DNA from: an uncultured Brachyspira sp.
GTDB lineage: Bacteria; Spirochaetota; Brachyspiria; Brachyspirales; Brachyspiraceae
Assembly: GCF_944393015.1 (NCBI RefSeq)
Contig: NZ_CALXYQ010000003.1
Location: 62,001 to 126,000, forward strand
DNA: 64,000 nucleotides
Direction of reading: 5' to 3'
In this document: positions 2,971-30,544 of the stretch, piece after piece
Numbering within the stretch: position 1 is the stretch's first letter
Layout of the letters: every line of letters begins with the position of its first letter
Position numbers and translations under genes: made by a program
The notes under the pieces: generated by a model
Seen by the model: the letters and a program-made list of their open reading frames with translations, nothing else
The model's database searches: none
What the model was told of the DNA's origin: nothing

Positions 2971-2992
2971 GTATAAAGAAAATAATAAAAGA

Positions 2993-3103
2993 GATAATTC
3001 CCTACGCTGGCATTACCCAAACAGGTTATAAGGGTCGAAGTTTAATAATAAAAAATTATGTAAACTTCCTCTCAGCCTTTTCAAGCTCCCCGATTGTGAG
3101 AAA
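2993..3103 (-). promoter_or_regulatory. TPP (thiamin pyrophosphate) riboswitch
   Basis: Read on the minus strand, the region has the THI-box signatures in order: GGGGAGC, then GGCTGAGAGG, a variable P3 stem-loop (AAGTTTA paired with TAAACTT), then GACCCTTATAACCTG, and finally GGTAATGCCAGCGTAGGGA. CTGAGA and the ACC-CTG-TAATGCCAGCG core bind the pyrimidine and pyrophosphate halves of TPP. The aptamer ends about 180 bases before the OppA-type lipoprotein gene, which is followed by tenA. High TPP should lower expression of both. Confidence 0.95.
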
Positions 3104-19003: not shown

Positions 19004-20689
19004 ATGTCATCATCTAAAGAATATTATGAAGAAGCCATTAATTATTGTAAAGAAGGTCAATTCCAAAAGGCATTAGAAGTATTAAAAAAAGTAATAGAAT
19101 TGGATAAAGATAATTTAGATGCGTATTTATTATCTGGTGATATTAATTTTGAGTTAAATGAAAATGAAGAAGCTATTGAATGCTATAATAAAGCTATAGA
19201 GTTGGATAATAATAACAGCTATGCTTATAATAGCAGAGGACTTGCTAAATATAATTTGAGGTTATATGAAGAAGCTATTGAGGATTTTGATAAGGCTATA
19301 GAATTAGAGCCTAATAATAGCAATTATTATCGTTACAGAGGGAATGCTAAATATGATTCAGGCTTATATCCTAAGCCTGTCAGATTAGGAGATTATGACA
19401 GTGAAGCTTCAAAAAAAGAATCAATGAGATTATATAAAGAGGCGGTTAAAGATTATAATAAAGCTATAGAATTAGACCCTAATAATATTTATTCATACAA
19501 TAAAAGAGGAGATGCTAAATATGATTTGGGCTTATATGAGGAAGCCATTAAAGATTATGATAAAGTCATAGAATTGGATTCTGATTATTCTTATATGTAT
19601 TACTGCAGAGGAAATGCCAAAAATAATTTGGGCTTGTATAAAGAAGCGGTTAAAGATTATGATAAAGCTGTAGAGTTAGATCCTGATAATACTGATTATT
19701 ATATTAAAAGAGGAGAATCTAAAAAGGATTTAGGCTTATATAAAGAAGCGGTTAGAGATTATCTTAAAGCTATAGAGTTGGAGTCTGATAATACTAAAGC
19801 TTATGAAAGTATAATTGAGGTTTATGATAAAGTTATAGGATTATACCCTAATAATATTAAATTTTATAAGAGAAGAGGAAAAATTAAACTTTATTTGGGG
19901 CAGTATGCAGGTGCAATTATGGATTTTAATAAAATTATAGAATTAGATTCCAATGATATTGATTCTTATAATAAGAGGGGAGTATCTAAAAGGAATTTAG
20001 GTTTACATAAAGAAGCTATGAAAGATTTTAATAAAATTATAGATTTAGATGCTAATTATAGTGATGTTTATAAAAATATAGGAAATATTAAAACTGATTT
20101 AGGATTATATAAAGAAGCTATGGAATATTTTAAAAGAGCTTTTGAGATTAATCATGATAAAACTTATATTCGTTTTATAGAAGCTATGCAGTGTAATATA
20201 GATTTATTGGAAAGAGATATTAATGAATATAATGAAGCTGTCAAATTAAATCCGAATGATATTGATATTTATATTAATAGAGCGGGTGCTGAAAATAGTT
20301 TAGGATTATATAAAGAAGCTATTGAAGATTATGACAAGGCTATAGAATTAAATCCTAATAACAGCGTTGTTTATATTAAGAGAGGAGATATTAAAAATTA
20401 TTTGGGTTTATATAAAGAGGCTATAGAAGATTATAACAAATCTATAGAATTAAATTCTGATTACAGCGATGCTTACAGAAAAAGAGGCGAATCTAAAAAT
20501 AGCTTGGGATTATATAAAGAAGCTATTGAGGATTATGACAAAGCTATAGAGTTAAACTGCTATAACGGTAATGCTTACAGCGGAAGAGGAGAAGCTAAAG
20601 AGAATTTAGGTATGCATGAATATGCTGTAAAAGATTATGATAAGGCTATAGAATTGAATTCTAATATCGATTATTTAGATGCTGTATAG
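19004..20689 (+). CDS. TPR-repeat protein (first of four)
   Basis: A 561-residue protein made almost wholly of 34-residue tetratricopeptide repeats of the class (Y/N)NRG-AK-LGLYEEAI-DYDKAIEL-PN. A roughly 20-residue insert (around residues 124-144, including YPKPVRLGDYDSEASKK) lengthens one repeat, and a few central repeats are degenerate. There is no signal peptide or membrane segment, so it is probably cytoplasmic. A strong AGGGGG ribosome-binding site precedes the ATG. TPR arrays are protein-binding scaffolds; no partner or enzymatic domain is visible. Confidence 0.92.
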   Translation: MSSSKEYYEEAINYCKEGQFQKALEVLKKVIELDKDNLDAYLLSGDINFELNENEEAIECYNKAIELDNNNSYAYNSRGLAKYNLRLYEEAIEDFDKAIELEPNNSNYYRYRGNAKYDSGLYPKPVRLGDYDSEASKKESMRLYKEAVKDYNKAIELDPNNIYSYNKRGDAKYDLGLYEEAIKDYDKVIELDSDYSYMYYCRGNAKNNLGLYKEAVKDYDKAVELDPDNTDYYIKRGESKKDLGLYKEAVRDYLKAIELESDNTKAYESIIEVYDKVIGLYPNNIKFYKRRGKIKLYLGQYAGAIMDFNKIIELDSNDIDSYNKRGVSKRNLGLHKEAMKDFNKIIDLDANYSDVYKNIGNIKTDLGLYKEAMEYFKRAFEINHDKTYIRFIEAMQCNIDLLERDINEYNEAVKLNPNDIDIYINRAGAENSLGLYKEAIEDYDKAIELNPNNSVVYIKRGDIKNYLGLYKEAIEDYNKSIELNSDYSDAYRKRGESKNSLGLYKEAIEDYDKAIELNCYNGNAYSGRGEAKENLGMHEYAVKDYDKAIELNSNIDYLDAV

Positions 20690-20778
20690 TTTTTAAAATT
20701 TAAATTTATATATTTAATTCTAGTATTAAGTAATTTTTGTATTATAATATTGATTAATAATCAATATAGGAACTATAA

Positions 20779-22635
20779 ATGACAAAATTAATTAATTATT
20801 TCTTTAACAAACATATAAAGCTATGTAAAATAGAATTAAAAGGTTTTGAAAACGGAGAAGCTGAAGATTTAAGAAAAGATTTAAAAATAGAGGCAAAAAA
20901 ATGTATAGAAGATGCTAATAATTTTTTAAATAGTATTGATGCAGAAAATTATTCTGATTTTGATGATTTTAACAGAAAGGCAGAAAAATTTAATGATGAG
21001 TTAAATAGAATACTTGAAATATTTTATATAAAAGACCCTGAAGAAGAAATTTATACTTATAAAAAATTTATTGATTATTTTCATTATGATAAAACTATGT
21101 TTAATGATGAAAGTGATGAAATAGATATTAGTTATTTCGATACTTTGGATGAATATTTAGATTATAACACTAGGGGAGTTGTTAAAAACAATTTAAAAGA
21201 GTATCAGGATGCTATAGTATGTTATAATAAAGCTATAGACTTGATTGATAATTATGCATTAGCTTATTATAATAGGGGGGTATCTAAAAGCAATTTGGGA
21301 TTTTTTAAGAAAGCTATAAAGGATTATGACAAAGCTATAGAATTAAGTAAAAATTATAAAGATGCTTATTATAATAGAGGGTTTGCTAAAAATAATGCTG
21401 GATTGCACAAAGAAGCTATTGAAGATTATAATAAGGTTATAGAGTTAGACAATAAAAATATAGATGCATATAATAATAGAGGAGTTTCCAAAAATTATTT
21501 ACAGCTTTTTGATGAGGCTATGAAAGATTTTAATAAGATTTTAGAGTTAGAGCCTAATAATTATTGTGCCTATAGCAACAGAGGCAATTCTAAAAATGAT
21601 TTAGGACTTTATAAAGAAGCTATTGAAGATTATAACAAAGCTTTAAAGATTAATCCTAATTTTGCAGATGCTTATTATAATAGAGGAAATTCAAAAAAAG
21701 AGTTAGGTTTATTTAAAGAAGCTATTGAAGATTATGATAATGCTATAAAATGGAAACCTAATGATATAAATTCCTATATGAATAGAGGAAATGTTAAATA
21801 TGATTTAGAATTATATGAAGAATCTATAAAAGATTATGACAAAATTATAAAATTGGATCATAATTATGTAGATGCTTATTATAACAGGGCAAATGCAAAA
21901 AGAGAGCTGGGTTTATATAAGGAATCTATAAAAGATTATGATAAAGCTATATATTTAAATCCTAATTATAGTGATGCATATAATAATAGAGGGCTTGCTA
22001 AAAGTGAGTTAGGAATGTATGAAGAAGCTATAAAAGATTATGAAGAATCTATAGATTTATGTGCGGATAATCCAGAAGCCTATTATAATATAGGAAGTGC
22101 TAAATATGATTTGGATCTTTTAAAAGAATCAATTAAATATTATGATAAGGCTATAGAATTAAGACCGACTTATAGTGAGGCATATAATAACAGGGGACTT
22201 TCTAAAAATGATTTGGGACTTTATAAAGAAGCCATAAAAGATTATGATAAATCTATAGAATTAAACCCTAATGACAGCAATACTTATAATAATAGAGGAC
22301 TTACTAAATATACTTTAGGCTTGTATAAAGAAGCTATCAAAGATTATACTAAGGCTATAGAATTGACTCCTAATTATACAAATGCTTACGGCAATAGAGG
22401 AAGTGCTAAAGATGAATTAGGACAGTATCAAGAAGCTATAAAGGATTATGATAAAGCTATAGAATTGGAACCAAATACTGCTTATTTATATAATGATAGA
22501 GGATGGGTTAAGAAAAATGCAGGACTATATAAAGAGGCTTTAAAAGATTATAAAAAGGCTTTAGAATTAGATCCTAATAATGAATATGCAAAGAGCAATA
22601 TTGCAAATCTTAAAAAAGAACATGGCTTGAAATAA
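20779..22635 (+). CDS. TPR-repeat protein (second of four)
   Basis: 618 residues: an N-terminal helical, probably coiled-coil region of about 130 residues, then about fourteen consecutive 34-residue TPR units. The N-terminal region has the motif DAENYSDFDDFNRKAEKFN, which recurs in the fourth TPR protein (25535-26797) but not in the first or third, so the two form a subfamily. A proper AGGA ribosome-binding site precedes the ATG. No signal peptide is seen. It is 89 bases after the previous TPR gene and 25 before the next, so it probably shares a transcript with the latter. Confidence 0.92.
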   Translation: MTKLINYFFNKHIKLCKIELKGFENGEAEDLRKDLKIEAKKCIEDANNFLNSIDAENYSDFDDFNRKAEKFNDELNRILEIFYIKDPEEEIYTYKKFIDYFHYDKTMFNDESDEIDISYFDTLDEYLDYNTRGVVKNNLKEYQDAIVCYNKAIDLIDNYALAYYNRGVSKSNLGFFKKAIKDYDKAIELSKNYKDAYYNRGFAKNNAGLHKEAIEDYNKVIELDNKNIDAYNNRGVSKNYLQLFDEAMKDFNKILELEPNNYCAYSNRGNSKNDLGLYKEAIEDYNKALKINPNFADAYYNRGNSKKELGLFKEAIEDYDNAIKWKPNDINSYMNRGNVKYDLELYEESIKDYDKIIKLDHNYVDAYYNRANAKRELGLYKESIKDYDKAIYLNPNYSDAYNNRGLAKSELGMYEEAIKDYEESIDLCADNPEAYYNIGSAKYDLDLLKESIKYYDKAIELRPTYSEAYNNRGLSKNDLGLYKEAIKDYDKSIELNPNDSNTYNNRGLTKYTLGLYKEAIKDYTKAIELTPNYTNAYGNRGSAKDELGQYQEAIKDYDKAIELEPNTAYLYNDRGWVKKNAGLYKEALKDYKKALELDPNNEYAKSNIANLKKEHGLK

Positions 22636-22660
22636 AATTAGTTTTATAGGAAATTGTACT

Positions 22661-25114
22661 ATGAATGACAATATTAAAGAATTGCTAGATAAAGCTAAAG
22701 AAGCTTATGAAAATAAAGAGTATGAAAAGTCAATTGAATATATTGATAAGGTTATATTTTATAATGGCGATTCTTATGATCTTTATCATAATAGGGGATT
22801 ATCAAAATTAAATTTGGGTTTATATGAAGAAGCTATAAAAGATTTTGAGAGAGCCATCGAATTGGGTGATGATGGTGAAGCTGTATATTATGATAGAGGT
22901 TTGGCAAAATTATATTTAGGTAATTATGAAGAAGCTATAGAAGATTTTAACAGAGTTTTGCAAATAAATAATAATGATATTGATTCTTATATTAATATAG
23001 GATTATGTTATCTTTATATGAAAAAATATAAAGAAGCTATAAATATTTATGATGAAGTAATAGCAGATTTTCCTGATAATATTAGTTCTTATAATAATAG
23101 GGGATTATGTAAGTTTTATTTATCTCAATTTGAAGAAGCTATAAATGATTTTAATAAAGTTATAGAATTAGATAAAAATGATACAGCAAGTTCGGCATAT
23201 AATACTATTGGTTTATGTAAATACAATTTGAATGAATTTGATGAAGCTTTGAAATGTTATGAGAAGGCCATAGAGATAAATCCTAATTTAATTAATGCCT
23301 ATCATAATATTGCTTTGATAAAACATTCTGTGGGATTAGATGATGAGGCTTTATCATATTTGAATAAGGCTTTAGAAATAGATCCTAGCAATATTGAAAC
23401 ATATTTAAAAATTTATTCTATAAAATTAGGTTTAGGTTTAGAGCATGAAGCTAATGAATATTTAAATAAAATTATAGAAATGCATCCTGATGATATTTAT
23501 GTTTATGATAGAATAGGAAATATAAAAATTGATGCCGGATATATGGAGGAATCTTTAGAATATTTAAAAAAAGCATTAGAAATAAATCCTAATTTTATTG
23601 ATGCATATTATGATATTGCTTTTGCTTTGCATAAATTAGATTTAAATAATGAGGCTTTGGAATATTTAGAAAAAGCACTTCAAATTTATCCTAATAGTGC
23701 AGATACTTATTTCAAAATGTTTTTAATTAAAAGAGCTTTAAGAGATTATGACGGAGCTTTATATTGTTTAAATAAAATACTTGAAATAGATAATACTGAT
23801 GTTGTTATTTATAATGAAATTGCTTTGATCAAAATAGAATTAGAATTATATGATGAGGCTTTATCATATTTAAATAAGGGTTTAGAAATAGATGATCATA
23901 ATGCTGAAATATATAATAGTATTGGATTAGTATATCATTATAAAAAAGATTATGAAGAAGCTATTAAAAATTTTAATAAGGCTATAGAATTAAATACTTC
24001 TATGGCTAGTGCTTATTATAATATTGGTTTGGCATATTATGAAATGCATGATTATAAAAACTCAATTCGATATTATAATAAGGCATTAGAGATAAATCCT
24101 CAGTATGCATCTGCCTATATTAATTTAGGACTTATTAAACATAATTTAGGAAACTATAAAGAAGCTATTGACTATTATAAAAAAGCATTAGAAATAAATC
24201 CTGATTATAGTTTGGCTTATTATAATATAGCTCTTGCTGAAATGAGTTTAGAAGATTATAAAAATTCTTTGGAAGATTTTAATAAATCATTAGAATTAGG
24301 CTATAATGAAGCAGACATTTATATTAATATAGGACTTATATATTCAAGACAATCTATATATGATAAAGCTATAGAGTATTATAATAAAGTGTTAGAGATA
24401 AATCCTAATAAAGTTAATGCTTATTATAATATTGCTTTTTGTTTATCTAACATGGATAAATATGAAGAAGCTTTAGAAATATATGATAAAGTTATAAGAA
24501 TGTATCCCGGTAATTTTGATGTTTATTATGAAAGAGGATATACTAAATACAGGGCATTGAAGTATGAGGAGGCTATAAGAGATTTTGATATTATTATAAA
24601 TGTGAATTCCAAACATTATAATGCTTATTATTATAGAGGCTGTTCTAAAAAATATTTAAAGAATTATGATGAAGCAATAAATGATTTGAATAAGGCTATA
24701 GAATATGATCCGAATAATCCTAACTATTACAGTGAAAAGGCTTCTTGCTATGATTCTTTAAATAAGTATAGAGAAAGTATTGAAAATTATGATAAAGCTA
24801 TTGAATTAAAAGATGATGATTGGTTTTTATATATTTTAAGAGCTAAAGAGAAATTTCTTTTATCAAAGGAAACTAATTCAGAAAATAAAACAAATGATAA
24901 GAAATCGTTTTTTAATAAAATTATATCAAAAATTGCTTTATCTAAAAATTACACTGATTTAGAAAAGTCAGCATTAAATGATTTAGAAAAATCTTATAAG
25001 TTAGCTTTAGAAGATGAATTTTATCTTATGGTATTTAAAGATATTATAAAAGATGAATTTAGCAATATAGATTTGGCAGCTGAATTTTGTAAAGATAAGA
25101 ATATTACTTTATAA
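22661..25114 (+). CDS. Large TPR-repeat protein (third of four)
   Basis: The largest of the set, 817 residues, with about 21 TPR units that are more diverged than in its neighbours (for example EALSYLNKALEIDPSN and EAIDYYKKALEINPDY). The last roughly 110 residues leave the repeat pattern, with a charged linker (ETNSENKTNDKKSFFNK) and a helical tail. The N-terminus starts directly with repeats, without signal peptide. It follows the second TPR gene by 25 bases. Role unknown beyond a scaffold for protein binding. Confidence 0.91.
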   Translation: MNDNIKELLDKAKEAYENKEYEKSIEYIDKVIFYNGDSYDLYHNRGLSKLNLGLYEEAIKDFERAIELGDDGEAVYYDRGLAKLYLGNYEEAIEDFNRVLQINNNDIDSYINIGLCYLYMKKYKEAINIYDEVIADFPDNISSYNNRGLCKFYLSQFEEAINDFNKVIELDKNDTASSAYNTIGLCKYNLNEFDEALKCYEKAIEINPNLINAYHNIALIKHSVGLDDEALSYLNKALEIDPSNIETYLKIYSIKLGLGLEHEANEYLNKIIEMHPDDIYVYDRIGNIKIDAGYMEESLEYLKKALEINPNFIDAYYDIAFALHKLDLNNEALEYLEKALQIYPNSADTYFKMFLIKRALRDYDGALYCLNKILEIDNTDVVIYNEIALIKIELELYDEALSYLNKGLEIDDHNAEIYNSIGLVYHYKKDYEEAIKNFNKAIELNTSMASAYYNIGLAYYEMHDYKNSIRYYNKALEINPQYASAYINLGLIKHNLGNYKEAIDYYKKALEINPDYSLAYYNIALAEMSLEDYKNSLEDFNKSLELGYNEADIYINIGLIYSRQSIYDKAIEYYNKVLEINPNKVNAYYNIAFCLSNMDKYEEALEIYDKVIRMYPGNFDVYYERGYTKYRALKYEEAIRDFDIIINVNSKHYNAYYYRGCSKKYLKNYDEAINDLNKAIEYDPNNPNYYSEKASCYDSLNKYRESIENYDKAIELKDDDWFLYILRAKEKFLLSKETNSENKTNDKKSFFNKIISKIALSKNYTDLEKSALNDLEKSYKLALEDEFYLMVFKDIIKDEFSNIDLAAEFCKDKNITL

Positions 25115-25159
25115 ATTATAATATTAGCAGCTGTTTTATTTTTGGAAAAATAACAATAA

Positions 25160-25440
25160 AAAATTAACAAACTTAAAAAGTTTTAGTATATACTGAAAAT
25201 TTTTCAATTTGTCAACTGATGGACTTTATATAAAATTATCTACTTTTTTGCCGCACAAAAAAGCAGCAAAAAACGCAATTGCTATAATTTTATATTTTAA
25301 GAATATTTATCAAATATGGTGTAATACCCTAATTTTAGGTTAAAAATGCAGTTGTTTTGGTTCTTTTATACCAATAAAAGAACTGGGGTATGGGGCAAAG
25401 CCCCATATATTAAAAAGAAACTATAGTTTTATTTTTTACA
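25160..25440 (-). repeat. Intergenic repeat family, copy A (inverted orientation)
   Basis: This stretch fills the 420-base gap between two TPR genes and has no coding potential. It starts with the family boundary motif AACTTAAAAAGTTTTAGTATA. It also holds a stem ATGGGGC-AAA-GCCCCAT with an adjoining AAGAACTGGGG block. Read on the minus strand, the stem and block match copy C at 62455-62766 (GCAGGGCTTTGCCCCGC, then CCCCAGTTCTTTT). It lacks the TCGGATACGCTTCGCG segment of copies B and C. The function is unknown. Confidence 0.6.
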
Positions 25441-25534
25441 AAATATCGTTGTTTAAATGTATACTATGATATAATTGTATAATATACAAAATTGTAACTT
25501 GTATGTTAATAATAAATAGTTATAGGAGTTAAAA

Positions 25535-26797
25535 ATGGCAACAATGACTAATTTTCTATTCGGACAACATTTAGAAGAATCTAAAAATAAATTAGAGAAT
25601 TTGCAAAAAGAATTAAATAAATGTTTAGATGAATTTAATGATTTTTTAAATAATATTGATGCAGAAAATTATTCTGATTTTGATGATTTCAATGACAAAG
25701 CAAAAACTTTTAATGAAGAATTAAATAAAATAATGTCAGATAAACAAAATTTTATAGTCAGTTTTACAAATATAGTTGACAATAAGAAAGAAGTTGATAT
25801 TGATCGTTTAAACAATCTTACTGATTATCATGATTTTAATTCTAAAGGTATTTATAAAAGTGCTAATGGAGAATATGCAGAAGCTATAAAATATTATGAT
25901 GAGGCTATAAAGTTAAACCCTAATATGGCAAATGCTTATTATAACAAAGCTATTGCCAAAACTAAACTTGGACTTTTAAAAGAAGTTATAGAAGAATATG
26001 ATAAGGCTATAGAGTTAAGAGCTGATTATACTTATGCTTATTATAACAGAGGACTTCTTAAAAGTGATTTAGGACTTTTAGAAGAAGCTATAAAAGATTT
26101 TGATAAAGCTTTATCAATAGATCCTAATTTATTTGATGCTTATAATAATAAAGGATTATTAGAAGATGAGTTGGGATTTTCTAAAGAAGCTATAAAAGAT
26201 TTTAACAAAGCTATAAAATTAAATCCTAATTATGCTCTTGCATATAATAATAGGGGAAATGCCAAAGATAATTTAGGACTTTATGAAGAAGCTATTAAAG
26301 ATTATGATAAAGCTATAAAATTAAATCCTAATTATGCTCTTGCATATAATAATAGGGGAAATGCCAAAGATAATTTAGGACTTTATGAAGAAGCTATTAA
26401 AGATTATGATAAAGCTATAAAATTAAATCCTGATGATACAGATGCTTATAATAACAGAGGTAATGCCAAATATAATTTAGAGCTTTATGAAGAAGCTATT
26501 AAAGATTATGATAAAGCTATAAAATTAAATCCTAATTATGCTTTTGCATATAATAATAGGGGAAATGCTAAAGATAATTTAGGACTTTATGAAGAAGCTA
26601 TAGAAGATTTTGATAAGGCTATAAAATTAAATCCTGATTATGCAGATGCTTATAATAACAGAGGTCTTACTAAGGAAAATTTAGGTCTTTATGAAGATGC
26701 ATTAAAAGATTATAAGAAGGCTTTAAAATTGGATCCTAATAATGAATGTGCCAGAGAAAATGTAAAACGTATTAAAGAAGAATATGGTTTGAAATGA
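25535..26797 (+). CDS. TPR-repeat protein (fourth of four)
   Basis: 420 residues with an N-terminal helical domain (about residues 1-105, motif DAENYSDFDDFNDKAKTFN as in the second TPR protein) and eight TPR units. Units around residues 225-330 are nearly identical, and two are exact copies at DNA level, a sign of recent internal expansion. It has a good AGGAG ribosome-binding site and no signal peptide. It is flanked on both sides by members of the intergenic repeat family, so it may be a mobile or recombined addition to the TPR series. Confidence 0.92.
   Translation: MATMTNFLFGQHLEESKNKLENLQKELNKCLDEFNDFLNNIDAENYSDFDDFNDKAKTFNEELNKIMSDKQNFIVSFTNIVDNKKEVDIDRLNNLTDYHDFNSKGIYKSANGEYAEAIKYYDEAIKLNPNMANAYYNKAIAKTKLGLLKEVIEEYDKAIELRADYTYAYYNRGLLKSDLGLLEEAIKDFDKALSIDPNLFDAYNNKGLLEDELGFSKEAIKDFNKAIKLNPNYALAYNNRGNAKDNLGLYEEAIKDYDKAIKLNPNYALAYNNRGNAKDNLGLYEEAIKDYDKAIKLNPDDTDAYNNRGNAKYNLELYEEAIKDYDKAIKLNPNYAFAYNNRGNAKDNLGLYEEAIEDFDKAIKLNPDYADAYNNRGLTKENLGLYEDALKDYKKALKLDPNNECARENVKRIKEEYGLK
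26207..26410 (+). repeat. Perfect tandem duplication of a 102-bp TPR unit
   Basis: Two adjacent 102-base units, one TPR each, are identical (compare AAATCCTAATTATGCTCTTG at 26221 and 26323). The flanking units at 26425 and 26527 have the same spacing but differ at several bases. Exact identity over 102 bases in such drifting repeats indicates a recent duplication and a site where repeat number can change without shifting frame. Confidence 0.9.
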
Positions 26798-28311: not shown

Positions 28312-29295
28312 ATGGAAAATAGTTTAGATAAATCATTATTTGTAAAAGCAACGGATGAAGAAAAAGCTTCAGCTGAAGTAAAAAGAGAAAGTGTCACCTA
28401 TTGGCAGGATGCATATAGAAGATTCAAAAAAAATAGAGTTGCTTTGGTTTCTATTATAGTTATAGCTATTATAGCCATTCTTTCTATTATAATACCTATG
28501 ATTTCTGAGTATGGATATGCTCAAATAAATAGAGGAGTTGAAAACAGCCTTCCTACATTGGAACATCCATTCGGAACAGATACTTTGGGCAGAGATTTGC
28601 TTGTAAGATGTATGATAGGTGCTAGAATATCGCTTTTAATTGGTATTGTATCTGCTACTTTAGTTGTAATAATAGGTATAGTTTATGGTTCTATATCAGG
28701 ATATTTCGGAGGACTTACCGACAGCATTATGATGCGTATCGTTGATATAATAAGTGCAGTACCTACACTTTTAGTAGTTGTATTATTATCAGTTGTTCTT
28801 AAAGCTCCTATGGATAAGTTATTTTTACAAAATGAATCTTTAAGAGGAATAGGACTTTTAGGGCCTGGACTTTTCAGTATATTTATAGTTATATCTTTGC
28901 TTTATTGGACTAATATGGCTAGAATGACAAGAGGACAGATTTTAGCATTAAAAGGACAGGAATTTGTAACTGCAGCTAGAGCTTTAGGTACTCCTCATAG
29001 CAGAATAATTTTTAAACATTTAATACCTAATGCAATGGGGGCAATAATAGTATCAGCAATGGTTCAGATACCTAATGCTATATTCGTTGAGGCATTTTTA
29101 AGTTTCTTGGGATTGGGAGTTAGTGCTCCTATGGTTTCGCTTGGTTCTTTAACTTCAAATGCTGTAAGCGGAGTTTATTCTTATCCTTATCAGCTGCTTT
29201 TTCCTGCTGCTTTGATAAGTATTATAATACTTTGCTTTAATTTGGTTGGTGATGGTTTAAGGGATGCATTAGACCCAAGAATGAAGAACAGATAA
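28312..29295 (+). CDS. oppC: Oligopeptide ABC transporter permease OppC
   Basis: 327 residues: a cytoplasmic N-terminal tail, a first membrane helix near residues 45-65, the OppC-typical EHPFGTDTLGRDLLVR, and the permease domain with the ATPase-contact loop FVTAARALGTPHSRII. It ends with GDGLRDALDPRMKNR, characteristic of OppC/DppC. It follows oppB by 35 bases. It is separated from oppD by 271 bases filled with three tandem structured repeats, unusual inside this operon type. Confidence 0.95.
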   Translation: MENSLDKSLFVKATDEEKASAEVKRESVTYWQDAYRRFKKNRVALVSIIVIAIIAILSIIIPMISEYGYAQINRGVENSLPTLEHPFGTDTLGRDLLVRCMIGARISLLIGIVSATLVVIIGIVYGSISGYFGGLTDSIMMRIVDIISAVPTLLVVVLLSVVLKAPMDKLFLQNESLRGIGLLGPGLFSIFIVISLLYWTNMARMTRGQILALKGQEFVTAARALGTPHSRIIFKHLIPNAMGAIIVSAMVQIPNAIFVEAFLSFLGLGVSAPMVSLGSLTSNAVSGVYSYPYQLLFPAALISIIILCFNLVGDGLRDALDPRMKNR

Positions 29296-29299
29296 ATAT

Positions 29300-29555
29300 A
29301 TAAAAATTGTGAGCATCCGATAAGTTTACTTGTCGGACACTATTGCCGAAGGCATGCAAGCAGGCGAACAATTTTTATTAGCAATAACATTATAAAAATT
29401 GAGAGGGTTCTATAAGTTTACTTGTCGTACCCTATTGCCGAAGGCATGCAGAGCAGGCGAACAATTTTTATTAGCAATAACATTATGAAAATTGTGAGCG
29501 TCCGATAAGTTTACTTGTCGGACACTATTAGCGAACAATTTTTATTAGCAATAAT
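29300..29555 (+). repeat. Three tandem structured repeats between oppC and oppD
   Basis: Copies at about 29300-29391, 29392-29484 and 29485-29555. Each opens with AAAATTG(T/A)GAG and closes with GCGAACAATTTTTATTAGCAATAA, so AAAATTGT can pair with ACAATTTT. Inside is a hairpin with constant loop AAGTTTACTT, and in copies 1 and 2 a GCCGAAGGC hairpin. The inner stems differ but stay paired: TCCGA/TCGGA in copies 1 and 3, AGGGT/ACCCT in copy 2. Copy 3 has lost the GCCGAAGGC part. The last copy ends just before the oppD ribosome-binding site. Function unknown. Confidence 0.85.
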
Positions 29556-29566
29556 AAGGATTGAAT

Positions 29567-30544
29567 ATGGAAAATGGTCATTTGTTAGAAGTAAAAAATT
29601 TAAGCGTATCTTTCTTTACTCCTCTTGGAGAAGTTAAAGCAGTTAATAATATATCGTATAAATTAGATAAATCAAAAGTATTGGGTATAGTAGGAGAATC
29701 CGGAAGCGGTAAAAGTGTATCAGCATACTCTATTATGGGACTCATTGAAGAACCCGGAAAGATTATGAATGGAGAAATACTTTTTGAAGGCACTGATTTA
29801 ATTAAACTTTCAGAGCATGAGAAAAAGAAAATCAGAGGCGATTCAATATCAATGATATTCCAAGACCCTATGACTTGTCTTAATCCTGTATACACAATAG
29901 GCAATCAGTTAATGGAAGCATTGACTACGCATCAAAAAATAAGCAAAACAGATGCTATAGAGAGAATAGTTGAGCTTTTAACTTTAGTGGGTATTAATGA
30001 ACCTAGAAGAAGAATAAAACAGTATCCGCATGAACTTTCAGGCGGTATGCGTCAGCGTATAATGATAGCTATGGCACTTGCAGGAGATCCTAAAATACTT
30101 ATAGCCGATGAGCCTACAACTGCATTAGATGTTACTATACAGGCACAGATACTTGAGCTTATAAAAGATATACAGAAAAAAATAAATATGGCTGTTATAC
30201 TTATTACGCATGACTTCGGTATAGTAGCCGATATGGCTGATGATATTATAGTTATGTACGGCGGCGGTATTGTTGAGAGAGGAACAGTATTCGATATATT
30301 TGAACGTCCTAAACATCCTTATACTTTAGGTCTTTTGAAATCACTTCCTCGTATTGATATAAAGCAGGACAGACTCATTCCTATAGAAGGAACACCAATA
30401 GACTTGCTTAATATGAAAGCAGGATGTCCTTTCAGTACAAGATGCGAAGAATGTATGAAGGTATGTATTGATAATAAGCCGCCTATAACAGAATTTGAGA
30501 AAGGGCATTTTTCAGCTTGCTGGCTTCATCAAATGCCTAATTAA
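29567..30544 (+). CDS. oppD: Oligopeptide ABC transporter ATPase OppD
   Basis: 325 residues from the ATG at 29567, which has AAGGA six bases upstream; an in-frame TTG at 29561 overlaps the spacing and is less likely. Walker A GESGSGKS (about residues 43-50), Q-loop in IFQDPMTCLNPVYTIG, ABC signature LSGGMRQR, and Walker B ILIADEPTTALD are all intact. The C-terminal oligo_HPY region carries the cysteines CPFSTRCEECMKVC found in OppD/OppF. It powers peptide import with OppF at the inner membrane. Confidence 0.95.
   Translation: MENGHLLEVKNLSVSFFTPLGEVKAVNNISYKLDKSKVLGIVGESGSGKSVSAYSIMGLIEEPGKIMNGEILFEGTDLIKLSEHEKKKIRGDSISMIFQDPMTCLNPVYTIGNQLMEALTTHQKISKTDAIERIVELLTLVGINEPRRRIKQYPHELSGGMRQRIMIAMALAGDPKILIADEPTTALDVTIQAQILELIKDIQKKINMAVILITHDFGIVADMADDIIVMYGGGIVERGTVFDIFERPKHPYTLGLLKSLPRIDIKQDRLIPIEGTPIDLLNMKAGCPFSTRCEECMKVCIDNKPPITEFEKGHFSACWLHQMPN

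Follow-up and report, generated by a model that had tools for sequence, protein, structure and literature searches.

What occupies the spacer between oppC and oppD in this uncultured Brachyspira, and is it a device of the opp operon or a local copy of something more widespread? The preliminary description saw three tandem units, each able to fold, whose stems had changed in pairs around a fixed loop, and proposed that their position suits control of ATPase synthesis, mRNA processing or a protein-binding array. Here "the window" means the whole 64,000-nucleotide stretch of DNA analysed, which comes from a host genome of 3.44 Mb in 111 contigs.

The array between oppC and oppD

The spacer is 271 nt long and is filled by three head-to-tail repeat units, with start-to-start distances of 92 and 93 nt and a shorter third unit; all features of the array and both neighboring genes are on the plus strand. 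Upstream lies a peptide ABC permease gene, oppC (28312..29295; NCBIfam Opp3C, 328.6 bits), and downstream a peptide ABC ATPase gene, oppD (29567..30544; NCBIfam OppD subfamily, 400.5 bits). Both best matches score under the equivalog cut-offs and thus identify the family, not the precise substrate. Farther upstream of the opp genes, window positions 19164-26744 hold long runs of 102-nt coding repeats, which correspond to large TPR-repeat proteins.

Unit 1 (29299..29380) is of the long form, scores 81.5 bits against the covariance model described below, and was also recovered by the architecture scan. It consists of an outer stem (29300-29310 with 29368-29378), G.A/A.G mismatches (29311-29312 and 29366-29367), an inner hairpin (29316-29337, with loop TTTA at 29325-29328) and an extra hairpin in the linker, GCCGAAGGC. 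Unit 2 (29391..29473; 65.6 bits) is also long, and degenerate as judged by its fold and pair counts. The short third unit (29484..29547; 88.8 bits, likewise found by the architecture scan) has its outer stem at 29485-29495 with 29535-29545, its G.A/A.G mismatches at 29496-29497 and 29533-29534, and its inner hairpin, again with a TTTA loop, at 29501-29522. A conserved 3' tail, TTAGCAATAATAAGGA (29545..29560), leads into the Shine-Dalgarno-like AAGGA of oppD (29556-29560), and the oppD ATG follows 20 nt past the end of unit 3; the same tail stands ahead of start codons at many other copies of the family.

Folding of the three units

Copies 1 and 3 fold as RNA at -25.7 kcal/mol (z -4.3) and -24.8 kcal/mol (z -5.8), respectively. 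In each, AAAATTGT and ACAATTTT make up the outer stem and AAGTTTACTT the hairpin. The complement strand folds less well than the modelled one in each case, at -24.0 kcal/mol for copy 1 and -17.7 for copy 3. Copy 2, in which an A replaces the stem-closing U, folds weakly (z -1.4), and 17 of 200 shuffles do equally well; the three units are thus present as first described, with two of them folding as claimed and the middle one folding poorly. A scan for the architecture with the stem sequences left free found two sites in the 64 kb window, both in the opp spacer, while 20 shuffled windows gave 0 or 1 each.

The exchange of TCCGA/TCGGA for AGGGT/ACCCT, which had been read as a paired change between copies, does not survive alignment. 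The first pair of segments occupies columns 18-22/35-39 and the second columns 14-18/39-43; these are non-homologous, so the exchange within the array is not compensatory. At the homologous columns, inner pairs 19-38 and 21-36 and outer pair 16-69 are broken in copy 2, which acquires replacement pairs one register out. What the opp array shows is decay and re-pairing, not clean compensation.

A dispersed repeat family in Brachyspira

A sequence search of the host genome returned 71 matches, and a covariance model built from 14 copies (threshold E <= 0.01) returned 72. Across the genus the model has matches in 24 of 26 genomes; most have 12 to 84, while eight have 0 to 2. No match was found in five genomes from elsewhere in the class. 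The covariance search suggested in the preliminary description therefore yields dozens of homologues per genome, and the absence of homologues that would have told against a real element was not what was found. In the comparison of copy number, also suggested there, the opp spacer holds 0 to 5 units depending on the genome. In 17 of the 26 genomes the spacer lacks the element, including one whose OppD is identical over 325 residues; six genomes have intact units there (1, 1, 2, 2, 3 and 5, degenerate end units being counted in two of them) and three have decayed remnants. Outside opp, arrays reach about eight units. The opp array is one site of a dispersed, often tandem, Brachyspira-specific repeat family.

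At gathering thresholds, no Rfam family (4,227 models) matches the element; the sole match in the window is a TPP riboswitch aptamer elsewhere, at 2982-3102 on the minus strand (60.7 bits, above its gathering score). Relaxed E-values brought up nothing credible in the opp spacer or at seven array loci. The open-access literature searched, B. pilosicoli genome papers included, contains no account of these repeats, a weak negative given this scope, and no structured-RNA study in the genus was found in it.

Two further observations concern the range of the family. In species that have almost no other copies, five loci (L154, L155, L156, L178 and L235) share a single copy that stands 18-19 nt ahead of the same ankyrin-like gene; the site may be ancient or may have travelled with that gene. 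At L220, L225 and L243 there is a longer repeat, with a period of about 146 nt, that has the same GA/GA core inside the flanks GTCTCGATACCC...GGAAAGCGGGAT.

Covariation and a constant core

The fold conserved in the family spans about 60-90 nt. Its outer stem has 9-13 pairs and is followed inwards by a tandem G.A/A.G mismatch, by two further pairs and by an inner hairpin whose loop is UUUA; a third hairpin is optional. Among 136 distinct copies, double changes occur at 20 of 22 stem pairs, and standard pairs fill 96.1% of cells. Doubly changed cells number 443; shuffles give 96 (sd 13), and sliding the partners gives no more than 114. The covariation table rests on an alignment fitted to the model, which is why RNAalifold and structure-free checks matter: RNAalifold, run independently on the seed alignment, gives a nearly identical structure, and the inner-stem covariation recurs among copies fetched by anchors blind to that stem. 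Compensatory changes thus support one fold, as they do in a cis-acting structured RNA. Paired change around a fixed loop, as originally proposed, is real across the family and absent among the three opp copies; the selection on structure that it was taken to indicate is supported mainly by the family, the opp array adding far less.

The unpaired GA on each side forms a tandem G·A/A·G that is constant in 118-134 of the 136 copies, and the UUUA loop is nearly constant as well. When the outer stem is left free, 74 distinct sites have the GA/GA internal loop and each of eleven other dinucleotide pairs occurs at 0 to 6, a ratio inflated by the choice of loci for having the element. Around this same core the outer stem takes very different forms (AAAATTGT, AAAATTAT, AAACTTGT, AAAAAATC, AAAATAGT and AGCGATAAAC), the last of which defines a second family that a pattern search found in 19 of 26 genomes (reversed-pattern control, 0). 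A constant GA-mismatch and UUUA core beneath such different outer stems points to a specific recogniser.

Orientation and gene context

Several features of the family distinguish one strand from the other. On the modelled strand, which is the sense strand, G·U pairs outnumber A·C pairs by 98 to 27; in the set retrieved without inner-stem pairing the counts are 49 and 17, or 23 and 13 after removal of one wobble-rich pair. Between co-directional genes, 61 arrays are sense to both neighbors and 10 antisense to both (45:9 in the first set, 16:1 in replicate genomes), and the second family, with the AGCGATAAAC outer stem, is oriented 14:2. The host genome alone, without the arrays at rpn gene tails, gives 19:6 (p = 0.015), though p-values here overstate independence because many sites are common to related genomes and are counted more than once. 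Gene contexts were drawn from sampled sites.

Position relative to start codons follows the same orientation. A start codon lies within 30 nt past the array end for 26 of 78 sense arrays, mostly at 16 to 25 nt, and for none of 28 antisense arrays. Sense arrays near start codons stop just before a Shine-Dalgarno-like run, an arrangement that the opp array fits; the sense bias also holds for copies far from start codons. Replication-strand bias was considered as the cause of the gene-sense bias and set aside, as no replichore polarity appears among the array matches listed for genomes G004 and G009. The genes directly downstream, named by reading their sequences, include TPR, ankyrin, HAD-type, aldo-keto reductase, flavodoxin-like and ribH-like genes, too diverse for a single downstream regulon.

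Movement and Rpn-type genes

Near-identical copies at different loci within one genome, together with an empty site in genome G024, indicate past movement. The G024 site lacks a 195-nt composite insert, made up of the element and another repeat and bounded by TATTATT direct repeats; in the search for a target duplication, the empty-site comparison was clean at this one site and not at a second site or at opp. The Y1 transposase associated with REP elements (PF01797) was not found in any of five Brachyspira genomes by a search that was positive in an E. coli control, and a REP/RAYT system was rejected for this reason. At L167, L168 and L273, unrelated-looking Brachyspira intergenic repeats have a common 3' end near CAATAATAA, which may be a common insertion end.

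Another candidate for mobilisation is the Rpn/PDDEXK_2 group, of which most Brachyspira genomes carry 10-39 genes. The number of elements correlates with the number of these genes (rho 0.64, uncorrected for shared ancestry). The final codons and stop of PDDEXK_2 (Rpn-type) genes are overlapped by 11 arrays, whose outer stems match those codons. At these loci (L179, L181-L183, L187, L189, L216, L218, L219, L224 and L241) the arrays start within the last rpn-type codons: ...EIKKL or ...EIKNL and the stop codon are read from the 5' arm of the outer stem, and the 3' arm is a match to these codons. The correlation is suggestive; however, genome G001, with 25 PDDEXK_2 genes and 2 elements, is a strong exception, and in several relatives the element is missing from the rpn genes, so mobilisation by these proteins was not adopted. 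Rpn proteins are described as toxin-antitoxin defence proteins and not as conventional transposases (PMC10327210). At L179, L216, L218 and other rpn loci, a strong Shine-Dalgarno sequence also precedes an ATG inside the gene (for example AAGGAGGTTATT-ATG), from which a predicted C-terminal protein of about 90-125 aa would start; it would resemble RpnS, an intragenic antitoxin described in E. coli and C. difficile (PMC10327210).

Comparison with known repeats

One close likeness is to REP/BIME elements with their RAYT (TnpA_REP) transposases: these too are short imperfect palindromes, intergenic, present in tens per genome, sometimes clustered, and transcribed with operons, and the Brachyspira element is likewise a short palindromic intergenic repeat in many copies (the 12 to 84 of most genomes). 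It differs in its larger branched fold, its constant GA/GA internal loop and UUUA loop, its freely varying outer stem, its gene-sense bias, and the missing Y1/RAYT gene in the five genomes searched. Bacterial MITEs such as the Correia/NEMIS elements and RUP are small, non-coding and dispersed, with inverted-repeat ends. Measured against this general picture, the Brachyspira element shares all of these features and has apparent insertions between relatives, but it lacks a fixed terminal inverted repeat sequence, no full-length IS was matched to it, and its ends are not cleanly defined. The BOX elements of Streptococcus are modular, structured intergenic repeats near genes, with a variable number of inner modules; by the same sort of general comparison, whole units repeat head to tail in Brachyspira, and sequence and taxon are unrelated. 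The minisatellites (VNTRs) used for MLVA in B. hyodysenteriae resemble the arrays in having tandem units whose number differs between relatives, and differ in that the units described here are dispersed genome-wide and have a conserved fold.

Competing explanations

Possibilities for what maintains the fold include one that involves no RNA function. The main rival, a substantial possibility if an unlikely one, is that the element is purely a mobile DNA palindrome, MITE- or REP-like, whose fold is maintained because a nuclease or transposase reads the single-stranded hairpin. It is favored by the high, variable number of copies, by near-identical ones at several sites per genome, by the G024 site without its TATTATT-bounded insert, by tandem arrays of up to about eight units, and by the association with PDDEXK_2 genes in both number and position. 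The orientation bias would then reflect only which insertions are tolerated, since a ribosome site can come from the 3' tail; against this, the sense bias stays for copies far from start codons, and replication-strand polarity is not seen among the matches listed for G004 and G009. Nor is the machinery easy to place: the Y1/RAYT transposase was not found in the five genomes, G001 breaks the PDDEXK_2 correlation, and the terminal inverted repeat sequence is inconsistent, as the outer stem itself varies. A quite different route to matching arms is correction of quasi-palindromes by template switching, with the fold unselected. The arms are indeed long, AT-rich and matched almost perfectly within each copy, but such correction should erase the internal G.A/A.G mismatches, which are among the most constant positions, and it predicts no bias of G.U over A.C between strands; we judge it so unlikely as to be nearly dismissible.

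Two further explanations grant the element a role in the transcript. An intrinsic terminator or attenuator would account for the U-rich run ending the 3' arm and for the many copies close behind stop codons. It is nevertheless improbable: a terminator scan did not call the element, the U-run lies within the outer stem and does not follow it, so that a GC-rich stem with a U-run after it is not what is seen, and, where the downstream gene is sense, a third of the copies stop no more than 30 nt short of the start codon, a position at which a strong terminator would shut that gene off. The riboregulator of ATPase synthesis specific to opp, as first proposed, is favored by the location of the array between the two cistrons, 20 nt short of the oppD start; with the same element at dozens of unrelated genes and with the opp spacer empty in 17 of 26 genomes, the distribution largely refutes it, and we consider it very improbable.

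A putative mRNA element

The explanation towards which we lean, with somewhat better than even confidence, is a previously uncatalogued structured repeat that putatively acts in mRNA; the folded repeat is probably read as RNA and is not specific to the opp operon. The acting molecule would be the sense transcript, whose folded core may be recognised by an RNA-binding protein or a ribonuclease. Within the opp transcript, two or three hairpins would stand in a row before the oppD ribosome site, and through them the array might have a modest influence on how stable oppDF is compared with oppBC, or on how it is processed or translated. Because relatives differ in unit number and often have none, any such effect at opp is probably optional fine tuning. 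Among the points against an mRNA role, a DNA hairpin could covary as well, and, for opp itself, the spacer is empty in most relatives.

The element behaves like known dispersed palindromic repeats in transcripts, but no Rfam family matches it and no RAYT gene was found in the five genomes searched. There is a minority chance that it represents a separate class of structured RNA. The fullest version of this idea, which we consider possible but unlikely, sees in it a new class of mRNA structure, a mobile RNA module that amplifies in tandem and keeps a constant GA/GA-plus-UUUA core while its stems covary freely. A dedicated Brachyspira protein would recognise it, copies would be placed genome-wide before ribosome sites, and unit number would be an evolvable expression dial.

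Dispersed palindromic repeats are known from many bacteria, but few so clearly show a selected fold while nearly all of the paired bases change. In these gut spirochaetes the arrays amount to natural allelic series, the one at opp running from 0 to 5 units, which makes any influence on expression directly testable between related strains.
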